IMG/VR virus record: IMGVR_UViG_3300042465_005260
Location: 1-38,021 of that record
Strand: one strand, 5' to 3'
Origin: a virus
Length of the DNA: 38,021 nucleotides
Numbering within the stretch: position 1 is the stretch's first letter; each line of letters starts with the position of its first letter. The notes below the pieces were generated by a model, which saw only the letters and a program-made list of their open reading frames with translations, made no database searches and was not told the origin of the DNA. Shown here piece by piece: positions 1,212 to 38,021 of the stretch. The position numbers and the translations under genes were made by a program.

Positions 1212-2737
1212 CAGGAACCTAGCCAAGAGGTTGAAACACTTGATTGACCATAAGCCTTGCGCGGCGTTCTGTCAACGCGCTCGCCTCTGGAGGCCACGGG
1301 GAACGCGAACGTAACGGCTATCGCGTCCGCGGCGTCGGGGCTTGCGAGCCCACGGGCTTTCATCTCCTTCTTGCCTTCGAGGAAGATCGTGCCCTTGCTG
1401 TCCGGCTTCATCAGCGGCGAGATCAGGTCCGTCTTCAGCACCCGGTCGGGTGGGATCGACGCGGTCTTCAGCCATTCGCGCATGGCTCCCCACATCTCGG
1501 CCCGCTTGTTGCCGTACATGACCGGCTTGCTGCTCTTGGACCCAAAGTTCACCCCCTTGACCTTGTACCGCTGCTCCTTGAGCCGGTCCACGACCCCTGC
1601 GCCCAGCCCGCCCTCGTCGATCACCACCATCGTCGGCTGGAACTCCTCCATCGCCTCGATGACGCGGCCAACTACTTCCATGGTGTCGTCACCGCGGTAG
1701 CGCTTGATTGCCACGATGTCCCGGCCTTGCCGTACCGCGATAACTGTAGCGTCGGCACCGAAGCGTGCCGGGTCCACGCCGAGGACCACTGGAGCCGAGG
1801 CGTCCTTATAGCGGGGTCGTCCCATGGCGTCGTCGACGAGATGGATCGGGATGAACTGGTCATCTCCAGCCGAGGGAAACTCACCGTAGACCTCAACATG
1901 CGCCTGAACGCTGTCAGGCCCGTATTCGAGGATGATCTGCTCATAGACCGCCTTGTCCGTCCCTTCGACCGTGCGGGCGTCCACGGTCTTGTTGCGCCAG
2001 AAGTCCCGCTTGGCGTTGAACGCCTCGTAGAAGTAGCCCGTATTGCGGCGGGGGTTGGAGAACGCCATCCAGAAGCGGTTGGGCGTGTTCTCGGTGAAGA
2101 AGCCCGCAGCCACCTGCCAGATAGAATCCGGCACGCCCGAACTCTCGTCGAAAATCAGCAGCACGCCGTCGAAGTTGTGCACGCCCGCGTAGGCGTCCGG
2201 GTTCTCCTCCGACCACAATCGCCCCTCGACGCCCCAGTAGCGCGTGCCCTTCTTCAGGTCGCGCTCGACCAGCTCGGCCAGCCACTTGGCGGGCATGACG
2301 CGGGTAGCCGAGACCTCGAACCAATGGCTGTTCAATGCAAGCGCCAGCCACTTGGTAATTTCGGCCCAGGTGATCGACCGAAGCTGCGTCTCGGAGTTGG
2401 CCGACACGATGGTGCTGGACCCGATCCGAGTTGTCAGCATCCAGATCACCAGCCATGAGACGACGGCCGACTTGCCGATGCCGCGGCCAGAGCTGACCGC
2501 CATGCGGAACACGTCGAAGTCCACCTTGCCGTTGTTCTGCTTGATGTGCTCGGCCAGATCGCGCAGCACCTCGCGCTGCCACTTGCGCGGGCCAGAGAAG
2601 TGCTCCAGCGGCGTGCCGGGTTGCCCCCAGGGAAACAGCCACATCACGAACTTGAGCGGGTCGTCCTTGAGCGACGGTGCCCACAGGGACGCCATCAGGC
2701 TCTGCTCGTCTTCAGCACTGTAGCGAGTGGTCTGCAT
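1211..2737 (-). CDS. terL: terminase large subunit
   Basis: A 508-residue packaging motor that would couple ATP hydrolysis to DNA translocation into the procapsid and cut concatemers. The N-terminal ATPase shows a Walker A loop SGRGIGKS at residues 83-90 and a Walker B strand VLLIFDE at 192-198. The C-terminal RNase H-like nuclease domain shows acidic residues D322 (LGVDPARFGADA), D374-E375 (VVIDEGGLGAG) and D468/D471 (SPDAADA). Length is normal for the family. The ATG at 2737 overlaps the stop of the upstream gene (TAATG), and the stop overlaps the next ATG, so the gene sits in a tightly coupled string. TerS lies two genes upstream rather than directly adjacent. Confidence 0.97.
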   Translation of the reverse strand: MQTTRYSAEDEQSLMASLWAPSLKDDPLKFVMWLFPWGQPGTPLEHFSGPRKWQREVLRDLAEHIKQNNGKVDFDVFRMAVSSGRGIGKSAVVSWLVIWMLTTRIGSSTIVSANSETQLRSITWAEITKWLALALNSHWFEVSATRVMPAKWLAELVERDLKKGTRYWGVEGRLWSEENPDAYAGVHNFDGVLLIFDESSGVPDSIWQVAAGFFTENTPNRFWMAFSNPRRNTGYFYEAFNAKRDFWRNKTVDARTVEGTDKAVYEQIILEYGPDSVQAHVEVYGEFPSAGDDQFIPIHLVDDAMGRPRYKDASAPVVLGVDPARFGADATVIAVRQGRDIVAIKRYRGDDTMEVVGRVIEAMEEFQPTMVVIDEGGLGAGVVDRLKEQRYKVKGVNFGSKSSKPVMYGNKRAEMWGAMREWLKTASIPPDRVLKTDLISPLMKPDSKGTIFLEGKKEMKARGLASPDAADAIAVTFAFPVASRGERVDRTPRKAYGQSSVSTSWLGS

Positions 2738-3141
2738 TATTTGCGGCGGCTCATAAAGCCTGTAAACGCCGACATTGCATTGCGCGTGTTTGCGTTGCCG
2801 CCAGAAAAAACGCCGGACAACAGGTCAGCAAACGCATTTCCTTGCTGCGATGGCGCAGGTTCCTCGGGCGGCGACATGAACTGGTAGAACATCTTGCCCC
2901 GGCTGCCCAGCATGGACGGGCCCATTATGCGCAGCAGTTGTTCTATAGACTGCGCGCGGTCACCAAGGTCTTCGCGAAATTCTGGTCTCAAGGTCCAGCC
3001 GGAATAGTCAGAGAACATTGGCCGCGCGCGGCGTTGGTTTTGGCCAAAATCAAACCTTTGGCCTGCCGTGCCGGGGGCGCGCCCAAACAATCCCGTAACA
3101 AGATGTTTCTGCGCCGAAATGTCAGGTGATTTCGGAAACAT
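2737..3141 (-). CDS. hypothetical protein between terS and terL, 134 aa
   Basis: The product is 134 residues, mostly polar with Gly/Phe-rich patches, and ends in basic residues (GFMSRRK). Its N-terminal half carries PGTAGQRFDFGQNQRRARPM, and the middle is helical (GDRAQSIEQLLRIMGPSMLG). I do not recognise the family. A clear ribosome binding site, GGAGGT, lies six bases before the ATG at 3141, which fixes this start even though it overlaps the 3' end of terS by 20 bases. Being wedged between the two terminase genes suggests a packaging accessory or head protein, but this is only positional inference. Confidence 0.75.
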   Translation of the reverse strand: MFPKSPDISAQKHLVTGLFGRAPGTAGQRFDFGQNQRRARPMFSDYSGWTLRPEFREDLGDRAQSIEQLLRIMGPSMLGSRGKMFYQFMSPPEEPAPSQQGNAFADLLSGVFSGGNANTRNAMSAFTGFMSRRK

Positions 3142-3544
3142 GCGTTACCTCCGTTGCAACAAGGTCAATTACGCGCCGCTGCGCCTCTTCCAACGCCGCC
3201 GTGATGCTGATCTTCTGCTCGATGCTGACCTCGACCGCCTGCTTGGCCACCCACCCATGGGCGTAGCGCAGCATCTCGGTTGCCGCCTTGGCGTCCCCCG
3301 CCTCGGCAGCGGCGTACAGGGTGGTGGCCATGGCGCGCTCGCCCTCGGCGCGGCCTTTCTGTTCGGCGTACTCCGCGATGGGGTCCATCTGGCAGAGCTT
3401 GCGATACTCGGTCGGCGTCATGCCAGCGGCGAGTGCCAGGCTGTCGCCCTTGAGCCCCAGCTTGGCAGCCGCGTAGATCGCCTCCAGACGCGCCTCAGTG
3501 GCGGTCAGCGGACGCGGGTCATAGGGCAGCGACTGGAAGGTCAT
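3122..3544 (-). CDS. terS: terminase small subunit
   Basis: A 140-residue protein upstream of terL with an N-terminal helix-turn-helix-like region (TATEARLEAIYAAAKLGLKG followed by DSLALAAGMTPTEYRKLCQM, residues about 14-53) and a helical, Ala-rich oligomerisation-type middle. This is the usual plan of phage small terminase subunits, which recognise the packaging site and present DNA to TerL. The frame is open to 3757, but the upstream part is proline/basic junk overlapping a C-tract; the ATG at 3544 gives the normal family length. No Shine-Dalgarno motif precedes this ATG and a possible -10 box lies only six bases upstream, so the message may be leaderless. The repeat-rich region just upstream is a natural candidate for its binding site. 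Confidence 0.85.
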   Translation of the reverse strand: MTFQSLPYDPRPLTATEARLEAIYAAAKLGLKGDSLALAAGMTPTEYRKLCQMDPIAEYAEQKGRAEGERAMATTLYAAAEAGDAKAATEMLRYAHGWVAKQAVEVSIEQKISITAALEEAQRRVIDLVATEVTHVSEIT

Positions 3545-3550
3545 GACGTT

Positions 3551-3579
3551 AAGATAGCGCGGGTTGGCTGTTTGAGCAA
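3551..3579 (-). promoter_or_regulatory. possible late promoter for terS operon
   Basis: Read on the minus strand, TTGCTC (3574-3579) and TATCTT (3551-3556) are separated by 17 bases, matching a sigma70-like promoter at 3/6 and 4/6 positions. A second TTGACG at 3581-3586 has no -10 at proper distance. The predicted transcript start would fall at or next to the terS ATG. Evidence is motif only. Confidence 0.35.
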
Positions 3580-3669
3580 GCGTCAAGTATTTTGTTGTGA
3601 GCGTGGAGAAAAAATAAAAAGTTTTTGCGGTCCTTGGCCACGGCAACAGCAGCCGCGCTCGGCCCTGCA

Positions 3670-3687
3670 CCCCCCCCCCCTCCCCCC
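3670..3687. repeat. poly-C tract C11-T-C6
   Basis: Eleven C residues (3670-3680), one T, and six C residues (3682-3687). The opposite strand is a G-rich tract that might form a quadruplex or stall polymerase. Homopolymer length may be misassembled. Confidence 0.8.
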
Positions 3688-3724
3688 TGAGCACTCGCAG
3701 CAAAATGCTGCACTGCACCAATCT

Positions 3725-3770
3725 GCTAGCATGGTAGCAGGCTAGCCTAGCTAGCATGCTAACATGTTAG
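3725..3770. repeat. nested CTAG-containing palindromes
   Basis: Within 46 bases lie GCTAGCATG twice as a direct repeat (3725-3733, 3750-3758) and the perfect palindromes AGGCTAGCCT (3739-3748), AGCATGCT (3753-3760) and CTAACATGTTAG (3759-3770). CTAG, generally rare in bacterial DNA, occurs four times. This density suggests a protein-binding or cruciform site. Confidence 0.8.
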
Positions 3771-3828
3771 TTGCTGGCATCGATGCCTGGCGGCCGATTG
3801 CCGTGGACCTTTTGCCCTAGCGTAACTT

Positions 3829-4140
3829 ATGGGCAATATGGGCAATGGCACTAGGCATAGGTGACGTTGAGTAACTTATGGGCAATATGGGCAATCGTAC
3901 CTGGCAGGGGCTCGAGGCAGGGGCTCGAGGCAGGGGCTCGAGGCGCCGGTGGCGCGGCGATGGGCATTATGGGCAATATGGGCAATGGACTTTTGCATCG
4001 TACTCCTGAATCGCTGCACTGCAACATAAAGACTTCCTTATGTAGTACAATTGAAAATCCATATGTTCAGAAGTAAAGTAAACCCATATTGCCCATAAGC
4101 CGATGGCATAAGGCTTTTGGGCCCGCTCTCCAATGCCCAT
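3829..4140. repeat. iteron-like array of ATGGGCAAT units
   Basis: The 9-mer ATGGGCAAT occurs head-to-tail in pairs at 3829-3846, 3878-3895 and 3969-3986; the last pair is preceded by ATGGGCATT (3960-3968). Inverted copies lie at 4088-4096 (ATTGCCCAT) and 4132-4140 (AATGCCCAT). The first two pairs are part of a longer identical 24-base repeat (3823-3846, 3872-3895). Each pair, and the inverted copy at 4090-4098, begins with TTATGGGCA, which resembles the TTATNNNCA frame of a DnaA box. The array sits between the tandem genes 4247-5023 and terS. Confidence 0.88.
3905..3943. repeat. three perfect 13-bp tandem repeats
   Basis: The unit CAGGGGCTCGAGG occurs three times without gaps (3905-3917, 3918-3930, 3931-3943). 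Each contains the palindrome CTCGAG. The block lies between iteron pairs two and three. Confidence 0.95.
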
Positions 4141-4176
4141 GTCGTCACCCCACAAGCACCCCAACTAATGCCTAAT

Positions 4177-4205
4177 AAAAAACGGCGGCCGTTTGGCCGC
4201 CGTTT
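4177..4205 (-). terminator. Rho-independent terminator for the gene at 4247-5023
   Basis: A perfect 11-bp stem AAACGGCGGCC / GGCCGCCGTTT (4180-4190 with 4195-4205) encloses a 4-base loop. On the minus strand it is followed by a run of six T. It lies 42 bases beyond the stop at 4247 and isolates that gene from the repeat region and terS. Confidence 0.85.
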
Positions 4206-4246
4206 GCTTACTACGGCATATGCCGTAGCACAGCCATTTTCCCTCG

Positions 4247-5023
4247 TCAAGCGGCCGCGGCGAACCGCGCCTTTGTCGTACCATGCGCGGCGATCACGAT
4301 TGAAACGCGCGCGCGCGCCGACGTTCCACCGCAAGCGCGGCAATCGCTGCATGTGGTGCGCTTGCCAGCTTCCTCACTGGCAGGGCAAGCAATCTCACCT
4401 GCCATGATCGGCGCCGTCACGGCCGCGCGCACACGGAAAGTCCGCCAACCGCTCGAACGGGCCTCAACCGCCTGAGCTTCACTATCTACCGACGCCATAC
4501 ACAGCGCCGCAAACTGCGGGAACTCCCGCCACTGGTGAGTGTATCCGTTACGAGCGCGTACCAGCTGCGTAGCATGCTGCCAGACACGGAACGGCGCGGC
4601 GGCTGGATCTCCGTATGAACCAAGGCGGAAGATGCTATCGGCGAAAAGTTCCGGCAACAGCGCCACATCATAATCAGTATGCGGCCGCGCATAACGGCCG
4701 CGCACAAACGCGCCGTAAACACTTTCTACGCTACGGCCGATATTCACATAACAGCTACCATCATTTGTGGGCCTATGCGGGCAATGGCCACAGATTGAGA
4801 AATCATAACCAAGCCTAGCGGCATCAAGCGGCCGCATATCTTGGCGCAGGATGAAAGTTTGCACCATTGCGCCCGTTTTGGCATTGCCGGATTCCGAAAC
4901 AATCCGATTTGCAATGACCACAATCGGCGCGCCGTCGATAAGCGACGGGCCTTGGTACAGAATAACTCCGCAATAAGTATCGCGCTTCAAAGCGCGGATC
5001 ATGTCAGCTGCAGTCTTGATCAT
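4247..5023 (-). CDS. conserved cysteine-rich phage protein (DUF7227-like), 258 aa
   Basis: The protein has the conserved N-terminal run YQGPSLIDGAPIVVIANR, the block FSICGHCPHR...CYVNIG (about residues 75-96), RLGSYGDPAAAPFRVW, GYTHQWR, LCMASVDSEAQA, and the C-terminal cysteine block CPASEEAGKRTTCSDCRACGG. These blocks match a widespread phage and plasmid family that I recall as DUF7227; its function is not known. The two Cys/His clusters suggest metal binding, perhaps zinc or an Fe-S cluster. The last 25 residues past the cysteine block are Ala/Arg-rich and may be variable. A GAGGGG motif eight bases upstream supports the ATG at 5023. It is a single-gene leftward unit, driven from the divergent region at 5083-5107 and ended by the terminator at 4177-4205. 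Confidence 0.88.
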   Translation of the reverse strand: MIKTAADMIRALKRDTYCGVILYQGPSLIDGAPIVVIANRIVSESGNAKTGAMVQTFILRQDMRPLDAARLGYDFSICGHCPHRPTNDGSCYVNIGRSVESVYGAFVRGRYARPHTDYDVALLPELFADSIFRLGSYGDPAAAPFRVWQHATQLVRARNGYTHQWREFPQFAALCMASVDSEAQAVEARSSGWRTFRVRAAVTAPIMAGEIACPASEEAGKRTTCSDCRACGGTSARARVSIVIAAHGTTKARFAAAA

Positions 5024-5914: not shown

Positions 5915-6481
5915 ATGCTAATCGCCACTGATCTACTCAAAGCCGCCCTGCTTTGCGCTTCGCAGGAAGAGAGCCGCTACTATCTCCGCGGCGTGCACCT
6001 GAGCACCACAGGGCACCTGGTGACCACTGACGGGCACAGGATGTTTGTCGCCCGGCTGACCGATCGCCCGGCTGCCGACGTCATCGTCCCGTACAGTGAC
6101 GTGCAAGCGGCGCTCAAGCTCGCAGGCGCTCGCGCGCAAGATATCGAAGTGACGGCCGACCGGATCGGCCAGATTGCCTACACGCCCGTTGACGGTACTT
6201 TTCCGGACTGGCGCCGCGTTGTGCCGACGGGCGAAGAATTGCCATCCGGCAAGCCGGACGACGCGCCTAACGCGGTTCATTTCAACCACGCCTACATTGG
6301 CGATTTGGCGAAGATGGGCAAACTGCTAGGCGGCACGTCCATGTTGCATCCTGTCAGCGCGAGCCATCCTTGCCTCGTGACGTTCGGCGACCGTGCCGAT
6401 TGTTTCGCCGTCATCATGCCGGTGCGCCGCAAGATTGACCGCAGCGCCGTCCTCACGCGCAACGTCGTCATGGCGGGCTGA
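5915..6481 (+). CDS. compact sliding-clamp (DnaN-like) protein, 188 aa
   Basis: Residues about 14-104 follow domain II of bacterial beta clamps: ASQEESRYYLRGVHLSTTGH, then TTDGHRMFVARL, VIVPYSDVQAAL and the signature DGTFPDWRRVVP. The rest (VHFNHAYIGDLAKM ... CFAVIMPVRR, residues 121-172) resembles the second half of clamp domain III, including the MPMRL-like end. A full bacterial clamp is about 366 residues with three domains; this protein lacks domain I and part of III. It would act as a processivity factor for the phage polymerase at 10867-12840 or replace or poison the host clamp. An AGAGGAAA motif upstream supports the ATG. The homology is clear by eye; ring stoichiometry is unknown. Confidence 0.83.
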   Translation: MLIATDLLKAALLCASQEESRYYLRGVHLSTTGHLVTTDGHRMFVARLTDRPAADVIVPYSDVQAALKLAGARAQDIEVTADRIGQIAYTPVDGTFPDWRRVVPTGEELPSGKPDDAPNAVHFNHAYIGDLAKMGKLLGGTSMLHPVSASHPCLVTFGDRADCFAVIMPVRRKIDRSAVLTRNVVMAG

Positions 6482-7263: not shown

Positions 7264-7469
7264 CCCCGGATTTCGCTTATTGGGCGGCCCATTGCGCCGC
7301 GTTTGACGACGCGACGTTTTTGCGCTTCCTCGCGGACGTGGAGGCCCGCCGCAACCGCTACGACGCGGCCCTGGCGGCCGCGCAAGCGGAAGCGGAACGG
7401 CGCAACCTCATAAAAGAAAAGGCCCCCGTCACCGGGGGCCAGTCAACAACAGGGAGGAAACATCCATGA
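7260..7469 (+). CDS. hypothetical protein with TTG start, 69 aa
   Basis: A 69-residue frame opens at TTG (7260-7262), overlapping the upstream TGA, with AAGGA about ten bases before. The body (MTPDFAYWAAHCAAFDDATF, then an Ala/Arg-rich helix) looks like a real protein, whereas the tail after residue 51 is translated from a terminator-like hairpin. The stop overlaps the ATG of the DnaA-like gene (ATGA). The close packing supports it; the rare start and hairpin-coded tail lower confidence. Confidence 0.55.
   Translation: MTPDFAYWAAHCAAFDDATFLRFLADVEARRNRYDAALAAAQAEAERRNLIKEKAPVTGGQSTTGRKHP
7411..7440 (-). terminator. Rho-independent terminator on the minus strand
   Basis: GGCCCCCG (7421-7428) and CGGGGGCC (7433-7440) form a perfect 8-bp stem with loop TCAC. 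On the minus strand it is followed by a T-rich run (TTTTCTTTTA). It would stop the leftward replication transcript that ends with the primase-helicase at 7983, after crossing the convergent DnaA-like gene. On the plus strand the hairpin lies inside the end of the 69-residue ORF, just before the ribosome binding site of the next gene. Confidence 0.7.
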
Positions 7470-7933
7470 CGTATCACGACGTGCCACTGGACGCAATAGA
7501 GATCGAACGGCGCTTGCGGGCGTACCTTGACGACCTGGTACAGCTCGCGGGCGGCCCCGTGACGGTCTGGCGCGCAGCCCGCATGGCCATGGAGCACCTG
7601 CGGCGAGTGGCCGACGCACCCGACGACGAGCCCGTGACGCTGCCGACGACGCATCCCGAGCGGATCGTGCAGGCCGTGGCGGCCGCGCACGGGCTCACAG
7701 CCGACGACCTGCGCGGCCCGCTACGGACGCGCGACGTCAGCGCGGTGCGGCACCATGCGGTCTGGGAACTGCGCCTGCGGCGGCCCGACCTGCCGCTGGA
7801 CAAGATCGCGGCTTGGCTCAACAGGCGCGACCATGCGACGATGATCCACAGCCTGAAGACGTTCCGCAAACTGCGCGCGAGTGGCCAATACGACGAAGAG
7901 CGCGCCCTTGTGGAGCGCGCCCTGTCATGTTGA
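7466..7933 (+). CDS. stand-alone DnaA domain IV-like DNA-binding protein
   Basis: Residues about 64-137 follow the C-terminal DNA-binding domain of the replication initiator DnaA: a helix with VQAVAAAHGLTADDLRG, then TRDVSAVRHHAVWELRLR, LDKIAAWLNRRDHATMIHSL. The signature RDHATMIH corresponds to the DnaA RDHSTVLHA motif that contacts DnaA boxes, and 'D..AVRHHAVWEL' matches the preceding helix. There is no AAA+ ATPase domain; the first 60 residues are a different helical segment. A GGAGG ribosome binding site precedes the ATG. It would bind DnaA-box-like DNA, either to start phage replication or to regulate transcription. The TTATGGGCA units at 3827-4098 are candidate targets. The domain call is strong; the target is inference. 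Confidence 0.87.
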   Translation: MTYHDVPLDAIEIERRLRAYLDDLVQLAGGPVTVWRAARMAMEHLRRVADAPDDEPVTLPTTHPERIVQAVAAAHGLTADDLRGPLRTRDVSAVRHHAVWELRLRRPDLPLDKIAAWLNRRDHATMIHSLKTFRKLRASGQYDEERALVERALSC

Positions 7934-7986
7934 TGCTGGTCGCCCTTGTGCTGGCGGCCCTTGTGGCCGCCTGGCTCGACCTCTAA
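7933..7986 (+). CDS. possible 17-aa membrane microprotein
   Basis: An ATG overlapping the stop of the DnaA-like gene (TGATG) opens a 17-residue frame, MLVALVLAALVAAWLDL, which is a single hydrophobic helix. An ATG at 7927 would add two residues. It ends overlapping the primase-helicase stop by four bases, exactly filling the convergent gap. The coupling and composition are suggestive, but at this length chance is possible. Confidence 0.33.
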   Translation: MLVALVLAALVAAWLDL

Positions 7987-10289
7987 CCCTTCACCACTGT
8001 AAGGCCCGGACCTGCGGCGTGCTCGACCATGCGCCGCAGGTCGCTCTTTGAGTAGGTGCGCACCATGTCCTCGCGCGCCCAGATGTTTTTCTTGGTCTGA
8101 TACTCGGCCGACTTGACGGCGCCAAGGTCGATCCATCCCGCTTCCTTGAGGCCATGCAGCAGCGCCGCCTGGGGCACCTTGACGCCGCCGGGCGCGCCTT
8201 GCTGGAGCTGGTTGCAGATCTTGTGGAACGGGGAGGCGATGACGCCCGCGGCGAACTCGGGCGACGGCTTGTGCACCTGCTCGATGACGTAACTCTCCGC
8301 CATGCTGCGGCCCGTCTCGATGAGGCGCGTCCGGTAGTCCGTCCACGGCGGCATGGCCGCAGGGTTGAACGCCGACACGTCGCGGTCGAGCAGCCACCGG
8401 CCCACGGCCTGGAGCCCACCCTGCTTCTTGTACCACGCCCACAGCGCCACCGCATCGGCCTTCTCCATGCGCGGCGCGTGTGACCACAGGCAGAACCAGC
8501 GGCGGTCCTGCGTCGGCAGCGACAGCGGCACGGGGTCGTTGGTGAACGCCAGCACGAACAGGCGGTTGACCATGTCATAAGGGTGCAAGCCCTTGCGCTC
8601 GATGGTCAGCGTGTCGGGCGGCGCCGCGATGATCGGCTTCAGTTTGTTGGACAGCGAGCGGCGCTGGGCGGCTTCCGGTTCCTTGAGCTCGTTCAGGATC
8701 AGGATCTCGCTCTCCAGAGCGTAGCCCCAGCGCGAGTTGATGCCGTCAGCGTCCACCAGCCCGCGGTTGCGCAGGTCCGGCCCGCACACGGACCAAATGA
8801 AGGGAAACCAGAACGTGTCCTTGCCGCAGCCTTCGTCGCCGCCATGCAGCACCGCGTGATTGATCTTCACCTCCGGGTGCTGAAGCTTGAACGCCATGAC
8901 GTCGAAGACGTGCTCGCGCTCGACTTGGTCGGGGATCAACAGCTCGGCATGGGCCAGCCATGGCGTGACGTCGCCCGGCGCGACGCCGGACAGGTCCGGC
9001 CGCGCGTTGATCCAGCGGTTGCCGTAGACCTCGCTGTCCTTGGCAACAAGAACGCTCTCGCCCGCGGCGTAGGTCAGTCCGCGTAGCACACGCGCGCCCG
9101 CGCCCTGGCGGTTCTCGTCGTAGCAGACGGACGCCTCGACCTTGCGTTGCGTGTGAATGGACTTGCAATCGACGTGTCTAAACACCGCGTTGAACGCGCC
9201 GCGCGTCATCTCCCGCCGGTCGATCATGTCGAAATAGGCGTCGTCCTCGACGATGTACGCGAAGCGGCTGAACCACTCGCGCTTGGTCAGGCGGCCCAGC
9301 TCCTTGCGGTCAACCTCGGCGATGACCTCGGCCGCCGCGTCAGGGAACGCCTCGGTCGGCTGGATCGTCGCGGCCACCATGGCCATGCGTTCGGCCACCA
9401 GCTCCTCGCGGAAGCCCGCCTGCACCGTCGGCCCGCCCTGCTCGGCCACCCATGCAAGGAAGGCGTTGCTGTCGAGGTGCTCGCAGTGGGAGTGGTAGCA
9501 GCAGAACGCCCGGTTGACGGGCGAGTATCGGCCCTCGATCTGGCCGTCCGTATGCGCGGCATGGTTCGGGCAGACGACGCCGCACCAGCCCTCGCGGTTA
9601 ACCTGGGAGAGCACGAGCCCCTGCTCGGAGAGCCACTTGAGCACGCTGTCGCTGCCGGTGTCGCGCAGGCGGATGACCTGCGGCCCGGCGCTGTCGGCGG
9701 GCGCTGGCGTGACGTCCAGCCCCTCGCAGATGGCGGCGAGCGTGTACTCGCGCTCCGGGTGGAACTCGACCAACCGCGCCGGGAACAGGTCACGCCCCGG
9801 CTTGAGGTTGGGCGAGCCCGGCAGACGGCAGTTGCGCACCGCGTTGGTGGCGCCGGGGTCGGTATAGCCTGCGGCCGCAATGGCGGTGATGGCCGCGACA
9901 AACTCAGCCTTGGTCGGCTGCTCCTTGAAGGCGTAGCCCCACTGGCAGTTGCCGGGCGACGTCTCGATGATCCACGTCGGAGGCACGGGCGGCACCTTGG
10001 ACTTGGTGCCGATGTCGTCCAGCATCATGAACAGGACGAACTCGCAGTTGGCCGCCGAGGCCGACGGCTTGCCGTCGAAGCGGTCAATGATGAACGAGCC
10101 CGTGTTGATGAACCAGCTCTCGCCGTCCCTGCGCGCCCGTGACGGCAGGAAGGCGGGCCATGTGAACTTGAGGGTGCCGTCACGGTGCGTAACCTGCTGC
10201 CCGTCGTACATGACGGGCTTCTGGCGCACGATCAGGGCTGTTTCGCCGTCCGGCGCAAGGCCGGTTAGGTATTCTAGAAGGTCTGACAT
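7983..10289 (-). CDS. primase-helicase (RepB-like primase plus DUF5906-type NTPase)
   Basis: A 768-residue replication protein. The N-terminal part (about 60-190) resembles RepB-type primases: FMMLDDIG at 88-94 with paired aspartates, TWIIETSPGNCQWGYAFKEQ and NAVRNCRLPGSPNLKPGR. A Cys/His cluster (C236, C240, H243, C263, C264, H266, C269) looks like a primase zinc ribbon. The C-terminal NTPase has Walker A GGDEGCGKD (483-491), a Walker B-like strand EILILNELKE (528-537) and LFVLAFTNDPVPL, typical of the D5/DUF5906 superfamily-3 helicase group. It would unwind DNA and prime synthesis for the phage polymerase. The ATG at 10289 has GAGGAAACA before it; the frame is open further upstream but without support. 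It ends the leftward replication operon. Confidence 0.9.
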   Translation of the reverse strand: MSDLLEYLTGLAPDGETALIVRQKPVMYDGQQVTHRDGTLKFTWPAFLPSRARRDGESWFINTGSFIIDRFDGKPSASAANCEFVLFMMLDDIGTKSKVPPVPPTWIIETSPGNCQWGYAFKEQPTKAEFVAAITAIAAAGYTDPGATNAVRNCRLPGSPNLKPGRDLFPARLVEFHPEREYTLAAICEGLDVTPAPADSAGPQVIRLRDTGSDSVLKWLSEQGLVLSQVNREGWCGVVCPNHAAHTDGQIEGRYSPVNRAFCCYHSHCEHLDSNAFLAWVAEQGGPTVQAGFREELVAERMAMVAATIQPTEAFPDAAAEVIAEVDRKELGRLTKREWFSRFAYIVEDDAYFDMIDRREMTRGAFNAVFRHVDCKSIHTQRKVEASVCYDENRQGAGARVLRGLTYAAGESVLVAKDSEVYGNRWINARPDLSGVAPGDVTPWLAHAELLIPDQVEREHVFDVMAFKLQHPEVKINHAVLHGGDEGCGKDTFWFPFIWSVCGPDLRNRGLVDADGINSRWGYALESEILILNELKEPEAAQRRSLSNKLKPIIAAPPDTLTIERKGLHPYDMVNRLFVLAFTNDPVPLSLPTQDRRWFCLWSHAPRMEKADAVALWAWYKKQGGLQAVGRWLLDRDVSAFNPAAMPPWTDYRTRLIETGRSMAESYVIEQVHKPSPEFAAGVIASPFHKICNQLQQGAPGGVKVPQAALLHGLKEAGWIDLGAVKSAEYQTKKNIWAREDMVRTYSKSDLRRMVEHAAGPGLTVVKG

Positions 10290-10309
10290 TGTTTCCTCGT
10301 TCTTATGGG

Positions 10310-10501
10310 TCAGTCGTCGTTTTTGAGCGGCAGTACAGAGTACCTTGTTGGCTCGTGGGTAACAAAATCCCACGATATTGTGCGGCTGCTGGCGGGCCAG
10401 GCATTCAAGGCCGCCGCAATCGCCCCGCCTACGTCGCCAATCGCGGCGTACCCACTCGCGGCTTCGATTGCTTCGTCGGGTATCTGGTCACGTTTGATCA
10501 C
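10310..10501 (-). CDS. hypothetical protein, GTG start, 63 aa
   Basis: A 63-residue frame opens at GTG (10501), three bases after the stop of the upstream gene, with GAGGTGA as ribosome binding site made from that stop. The product starts MIKRDQIPDEAIEAASGYAA and contains an Ala-rich helix (DVGGAIAAALNAWP). It fills the space between the secreted peptidase-like gene and the primase-helicase. The motif 'IPDEAVEAAARA' is seen in many small phage proteins of unknown function. Confidence 0.65.
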   Translation of the reverse strand: MIKRDQIPDEAIEAASGYAAIGDVGGAIAAALNAWPASSRTISWDFVTHEPTRYSVLPLKNDD

Positions 10502-37617: not shown

Positions 37618-38021
37618 TATTTCCTCTTGCCAGATGCGCTGGAAACGTTACGGCCGCTGCTGTCCTTGCGAGGGCCTGCCACGCCGCCCTTGTTAAAGGC
37701 GTTCTGAGACGTGCGCTGCGAAGCTGACATGCGGGTCTTGCCCGCAACGCCCGCCTTGGTAGCCGTTGAGCCAGTGCGCGTACCAGTCGTAAAGCCCGTT
37801 GTGTCACCTGTTGCGCGGTTGACCGCCATGCGGGCGGGAGCTGCGGCCTTCGCGCTGACAGGCGTAGTGCGCTCAGAAACGGTCGTGCGGATAACCTGCG
37901 CGGGCTTGGGCTTGGGCTTAGGCTTGGGTACGGCTGGCGCAGGCATCGGCATACGGGTTATTGGCTTACGGATGCCGGTGCGTTCGTCGCCAAAACCACC
38001 AAGAAAGTTGCCTTTAAGGCT
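37617..38021 (-). CDS. hypothetical basic protein before portal (3' part; 5' end at 247 on the circle)
   Basis: This frame is open to the end of the window. Bases 37895-38021 duplicate 1-127, so the true gene runs from 247 through 1 and then 37894 to 37617. Inside it a Met at 37952 (MPMPAPAVPKPKPKPKPAQV) would start a 111-residue fragment, but the upstream part (see 1-247) continues the same frame to a proper start. The C-terminal region is Thr/Ala/Arg/Lys-rich (TGDTTGFTTGTRTGSTATKA) and ends SSASGKRK. The stop overlaps the portal GTG. Low-complexity basic composition suggests a disordered, perhaps DNA-contacting, virion or assembly protein. Confidence 0.75.
   Translation of the reverse strand, partial: SLKGNFLGGFGDERTGIRKPITRMPMPAPAVPKPKPKPKPAQVIRTTVSERTTPVSAKAAAPARMAVNRATGDTTGFTTGTRTGSTATKAGVAGKTRMSASQRTSQNAFNKGGVAGPRKDSSGRNVSSASGKRK
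37895..38021. repeat. terminal direct repeat, copy 2 (circular junction)
   Basis: Identical to bases 1-127 and in the same orientation. Trimming one copy gives a 37,894-bp circular sequence in which the gene across the junction is intact. Confidence 0.93.

Follow-up and report, generated by a model that had tools for sequence, protein, structure and literature searches.

The repeat array upstream of terS in the phage genome studied here is very probably the phage's iteron replication origin, bound by the C-terminal wing of its primase-helicase, although we infer binding, melting and origin activity. The array is made of 9-bp units, keeps its place and layout in related phages, and its unit changes together with three residues of the primase-helicase wing.

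The stretch of DNA analysed (hereafter the window) is a complete IMG/VR virus record of 38,021 bases. Its head genes are like those of phage P22, and the array sits between gene blocks of opposite orientation. A direct terminal repeat of 127 bp was found (1-127 = 37895-38021); because this length is a common assembler k-mer, the repeat suggests a genome that is circular by assembly rather than fixed-ended, and it was treated as having no fixed ends. No close nucleotide relatives of window 3500-4300 were found among deposited phages, the bacterial genomes searched for a prophage or host of this phage yielded none, and an RNA family search gave no match. Elsewhere in the window, a protein encoded at 5915-6481 resembles the central domain of the DNA polymerase sliding clamp (PF02767), and an additional ORF (2737-3141) lies between terS and terL, whereas most relatives have terL immediately after terS. 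The features on which the analysis draws are the following.

3122-3544, minus strand: terS (small terminase), the downstream neighbour of the array.
3590-3690, minus strand: G-rich and poly(A/T) block that adjoins terS on its upstream side and is conserved among relatives.
3828-3845, minus (terS) strand: iteron pair TTGCCCATA-TTGCCCATA.
3877-3894, minus strand: iteron pair TTGCCCATA-TTGCCCATA.
3959-3985, minus strand: iteron pair (3968-3985) with an adjoining degenerate third unit (3959-3967).
4018-4097, no strand: the genome's A+T-richest 80 bp (67.5%), a candidate unwinding element between forward and inverted iterons.
4080-4097, plus strand: inverted iteron TTGCCCATA (4089-4097) with its degenerate partner AAACCCATA (4080-4088).
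4132-4141, plus strand: outlying degenerate inverted unit ATGCCCATG.
7466-7933, plus strand: stand-alone DnaA domain-IV protein (PF08299).
7983-10373, minus strand: primase-helicase, the proposed initiator, with a RepB_primase-like N-terminus, a DUF5906 helicase domain and a C-terminal winged helix.
8004-8321, minus strand: C-terminal winged-helix domain (residues 685-790, AlphaFold2 model), proposed to bind the iterons.
8097-8114, minus strand: wing loop codons 754-759, which include K754, A756 and Q759, the three residues found to vary with the iteron sequence.

The original prediction described three head-to-tail pairs, an extra copy and two inverted copies, and all of these repeats are present. 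Exact ATGGGCAAT occurs on the plus strand at 3829, 3838, 3878, 3887, 3969 and 3978 and on the minus strand at 4088-4096, making seven exact copies, all within 3829-4096, when simple arithmetic gives about 0.3 by chance in 38 kb. The one-mismatch form ATGGGCATT is found at 3960-3968 (plus) and 4132-4140 (minus). With up to one mismatch allowed, the window holds 14 copies, compared to a mean of 7.2 in 100 dinucleotide shuffles, none of which reached 14. Such density is confined to the array: the rest of the 38-kb genome has no exact ATGGGCAAT, and the genome maximum for any 9-mer per 320 bp, which is seven, is reached at the array only. Read on the minus (terS) strand, in a register set by comparison with relatives, the unit is TTGCCCATA with a head-to-tail spacing of 9 bp, and the inverted copy at 4089-4097 is paired with the degenerate AAACCCATA at 4080-4088. 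A switch of GC skew, proposed as a check on origin function, is absent at the array, an observation that carries little weight in a small mosaic phage. Within the array, window 3903-3944 also contains GGCAGGGGCTCGA in three perfect tandem copies; a relative with 97% identical TerL (L012) has another repeat, GATCGCCCGGCTGCC, at this place.

Relatives were gathered by a TerL search and four further primase-helicase searches, followed by automatic unit detection, in which unit extraction was heuristic and the register was chosen by consensus. A usable flank was available at 291 loci and a unit was obtained at 245, so that no clear unit emerged from about 16% of the arrays whose flank was usable; filtering left a non-redundant set of 159 phages with both a unit and a primase-helicase. 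The array is conserved in position, upstream of terS, while the sequence of its unit differs: TerL relatives (78-97% identity) carry there paired 9-mers with 9-bp spacing and a unit of their own in each lineage (TTGTCCACA, TGACCCAAA, TGACTCACA, TTGCCTACA and others). The syntax is shared as well, the 9-mers being head-to-tail, mostly paired and on both strands. Neighbours on the same strand are spaced by 9 bp in 480 cases, against 23 cases for the runner-up value, and arrays hold 9.5 copies on average. Placed in one register, the units read T-[TG]-[AG]-[TC]-N-N-A-N-A with few exceptions. In 14 relatives' records (up to 39 kb), every unit pair falls in a single locus of about 600 bp or less. 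Three relatives have a small ORF upstream of terS that separates the inverted part of a reduced array from its terS-proximal part (MPALRTLLEIDDAT... in L014 and L020, and the similar MPAYHDSFDMPK... in L017).

The layout is two-sided. In the window, the A+T-rich segment 4018-4097 is flanked by inverted units at 4080-4141 and forward units at 3828-3985, and in 125 of the 159 arrays an A+T-rich 80 bp separates units that are predominantly inverted from units that are predominantly forward. In PICI origins, too, an AT-rich region lies between two sets of iterons, an arrangement that, according to PMC6092414, was known from no other bacterial replicon. The A/T stretch at 3605-3625, previously put forward as the unwinding element, turns out instead to be part of the separate conserved block adjoining terS.

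Near the array, two encoded proteins are common to most relatives, namely TerS and the primase-helicase. The latter, 796 residues long with an extra C-terminal region beyond its DUF5906 helicase domain, was found in 38 of the 50 records of relatives, a set with many fragments. By eye, a motif in its C-terminus tracks the unit across clades. For each alignment column, residue differences were compared with unit differences over all phage pairs, with overall divergence removed. In the 159 phages, residues 756, 759 and 754 came top of the 751 columns (partial r of 0.52, 0.51 and 0.47, respectively), the next reaching 0.36. When the best column of each protein was taken in the 141 phages with all three, the primase-helicase gave 0.55, TerL 0.27 and TerS 0.25.

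All 89 phages with Arg756 have C at position 8 of the unit. Of the 70 phages with another residue, 69 lack C8; only the distant MW202483 has it. On a tree of the protein core, from which the C-terminus was left out (316 branches), Arg756 changes on nine branches and C8 on ten, and all nine are shared. Chance would produce this with a probability of about 1e-16 if branches were exchangeable; given that they are not strictly so, this figure is a strong indication and not an exact probability.

Close pairs of relatives illustrate the same point. L413 and L415 have TerL, TerS and primase core sequences that are 100%, 99% and 97% identical, but their wing residues differ: L413 combines wing motif CGRLKSREFDTKKH with unit TTGTCCACA, and L415 wing motif CGRLASADFKSKKH with unit TTGTCAAAT. 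Similarly, L308 (unit TTGTCCACA) and L302 (unit TGACCCAAA) are 98% identical in the primase core and 100% in the stretch just before the wing, but only 54% in the wing segment. In both pairs, the DNA from primase to array is widely different.

Unit predictions written beforehand for three phages fitted for L069, fitted at the ACA end for L068, and were mixed, partly fitting, for L055. Among 64 further phages with a unit, all 63 with Arg756 have C8 and the single Gly phage has A8; this test is weak, notably for the non-Arg side, because nearly all carry Arg and six or seven units are ambiguous in register. The residue triad gave the exact unit in 22 of 58 held-out contigs and a unit off by one base in 23 more (hand count); six of the others were ambiguous in register and seven wrong. 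The covariation shows a functional link; causal direction and origin activity lie beyond its reach.

AlphaFold2 modelled residues 685-790 as a winged helix (pLDDT 86), with residues 754, 756 and 759 (local 70, 72 and 75) in the loop between wing strands 63-69 and 78-83. The PDB fold matches of the isolated domain were winged helices, though weak ones (best Z 6.4, with Foldseek E never <= 0.001), and the 167-residue C-terminus likewise matched many winged helices, each of them weakly. Neither P4 alpha nor SaPI Rep domains were among the fold matches listed, and a PDB sequence search with the C-terminal profile gave chance lysozyme matches only. Taking the model together with the covariation, the tip of the primase-helicase that bears residues 754, 756 and 759 appears to read the repeats. 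Precedents exist for both elements, since the C-terminal domains of SaPI Rep and Cch2 recognise iteron origins (PMC7581432) and the beta-wing of TcpK reads 9-nt tandem repeats (PMC6137059).

The covariation would look alike if the array were an operator, at which primase-helicase binding regulated the flanking early and late transcription units and not the start of replication, and the position between oppositely oriented gene blocks would suit such a role. We nevertheless regard this as very improbable: the A+T-richest segment of the genome lies between inverted iteron clusters, which is the layout of PICI origins, and the presumed binder carries primase and helicase domains.

Some phages' TerS proteins bind repeats, and in the relatives examined the array adjoins terS on its upstream side. 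It might then be a pac site read by the adjacent TerS, with the concatemer nicked there, a role that the original prediction also allowed. However, TerS residues do not follow the unit (partial r at most 0.25), as is evident from L413 and L415, whose arrays differ despite near-identical TerS. Moreover, a better pac candidate lies between array and terS, in the form of the sequence-conserved G-rich block. This block, G-rich and poly(A/T) in composition (3590-3690), is separate from the array, is kept whatever the relatives' iteron type, and is a candidate pac site or terS control element. Packaging by TerS at the array itself is very improbable.

It is also very improbable that the units are DnaA boxes for host DnaA or for the phage's DnaA domain-IV protein (7466-7933). 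The phage does encode this PF08299 protein, the generic unit T-[TG]-[AG]-[TC]-N-N-A-N-A is similar to TTATNCACA, and exact TTATCCACA units occur in some relatives. The window, however, has no exact TTATNCACA and only 12 sites with one mismatch (13.2 by chance), and its unit, turned to the orientation of a DnaA box, reads TTGCCCATA instead of TTATGGGCA. Of the 50 records of relatives, 9 gave a match to the domain-IV protein, most of them from the window's own clade, and there was no match in five near-complete records that bear arrays (G011, G016, G017, G032 and G047). In addition, the units vary far more than DnaA boxes do, and in step with the primase-helicase wing. It should be noted that a similar DnaA domain-IV gene is annotated in MW202483 (L219 7083-7379), and that in L037, L425 and their relatives the units equal the host DnaA box TTATCCACA, so that host DnaA might bind there too.

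Finally, a neutral or selfish tandem repeat, of the kind that the adjacent GGCAGGGGCTCGA x3 might bring to mind, can be dismissed, since place and syntax are conserved in >150 phages and the unit covaries, at the level of residues, with one protein, the primase-helicase.

We thus return to the array as an iteron origin read by the primase-helicase. The C-terminal winged helix would bind each 9-bp TTGCCCATA, chiefly via the wing, in which residues 754, 756 and 759 would determine the preferred bases. Protein copies bound at the two kinds of iteron cluster, inverted and forward, would load helicases at both flanks of 4018-4097; this A+T-rich segment would melt and replication would be primed there, as proposed for SaPI/PICI Rep helicases. 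In the course of evolution the iterons change along with the wing, giving lineages with different initiator-origin specificities. What stands of the original prediction, on indirect grounds, is an iteron-type replication origin; a part for DnaA, packaging by TerS and unwinding at 3605-3625 are not supported.

On balance, we lean towards the view that a large phage family uses a PICI-type origin with a three-residue wing code, and that at least nine joint switches have produced mutually incompatible origin types, perhaps driven by competing phages, satellites or origin-targeting defences. An origin and its initiator would thereby be assigned to a widespread environmental phage group, apparently with a wing-centred reading of which TcpK is a rare example. 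About 160 natural initiator-iteron pairs make a small recognition code readable, and testable by swapping few residues, and the repeated joint switching turns the reason why phages change origin specificity (incompatibility, parasites or defence) into a testable question. In the open literature searched, there was no report of C-terminal iteron recognition or of iteron/initiator covariation for this phage group.

PMC6092414 also cites satellite phage P4. Its alpha protein is a primase-helicase fusion with a C-terminal origin-binding domain that acts on short iterons at ori/crr. The fusion and the short iterons are common to P4 and our phage, but P4 has two separate sites (ori/crr) and the phage one array, and the phage C-terminal profile has no detectable sequence similarity to any solved structure.

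The array is best explained, by analogy, as working like a SaPI/PICI origin. In those islands, two sets of short iterons likewise flank an AT-rich segment (PMC6092414, PMC7581432), the initiator has primase, helicase and C-terminal DNA-binding domains (to which, in the phage, the DUF5906 helicase domain and the putatively iteron-binding winged helix would correspond), and the origin likewise lies on the 3' side of the initiator gene. However, the PICI origin is immediately 3' of rep, whereas the phage primase-helicase ends at 7983 and the origin (3828-4141) is about 3.8 kb off, with genes on the other strand in between; since it is not directly 3' of rep, we did not file the array as a member of the SaPI/PICI origins. 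Moreover, SaPIs and PICIs are islands, while this is a phage with P22-like head genes and an origin adjoining terS.

For the wing, the closest parallel is TcpK at the TcpK boxes of pCW3 oriT (PMC6137059), a winged helix that reads 9-nt tandem repeats through its beta-wing, the mode proposed here. TcpK is an unrelated protein that serves a transfer origin with a three-base spacer between boxes, and wing reading in the phage is deduced from covariation only. Both halves of the scheme are already known from other systems, namely iteron recognition by the C-terminal domain of such helicases (PMC7581432) and initiator residues that covary with iterons, as seen in geminiviruses (PMC2974675). In the latter, rolling-circle plant viruses whose Rep has no homology to the phage primase-helicase, a few residues of the Rep iteron-related domain change with the iterons and give incompatible replication specificities.
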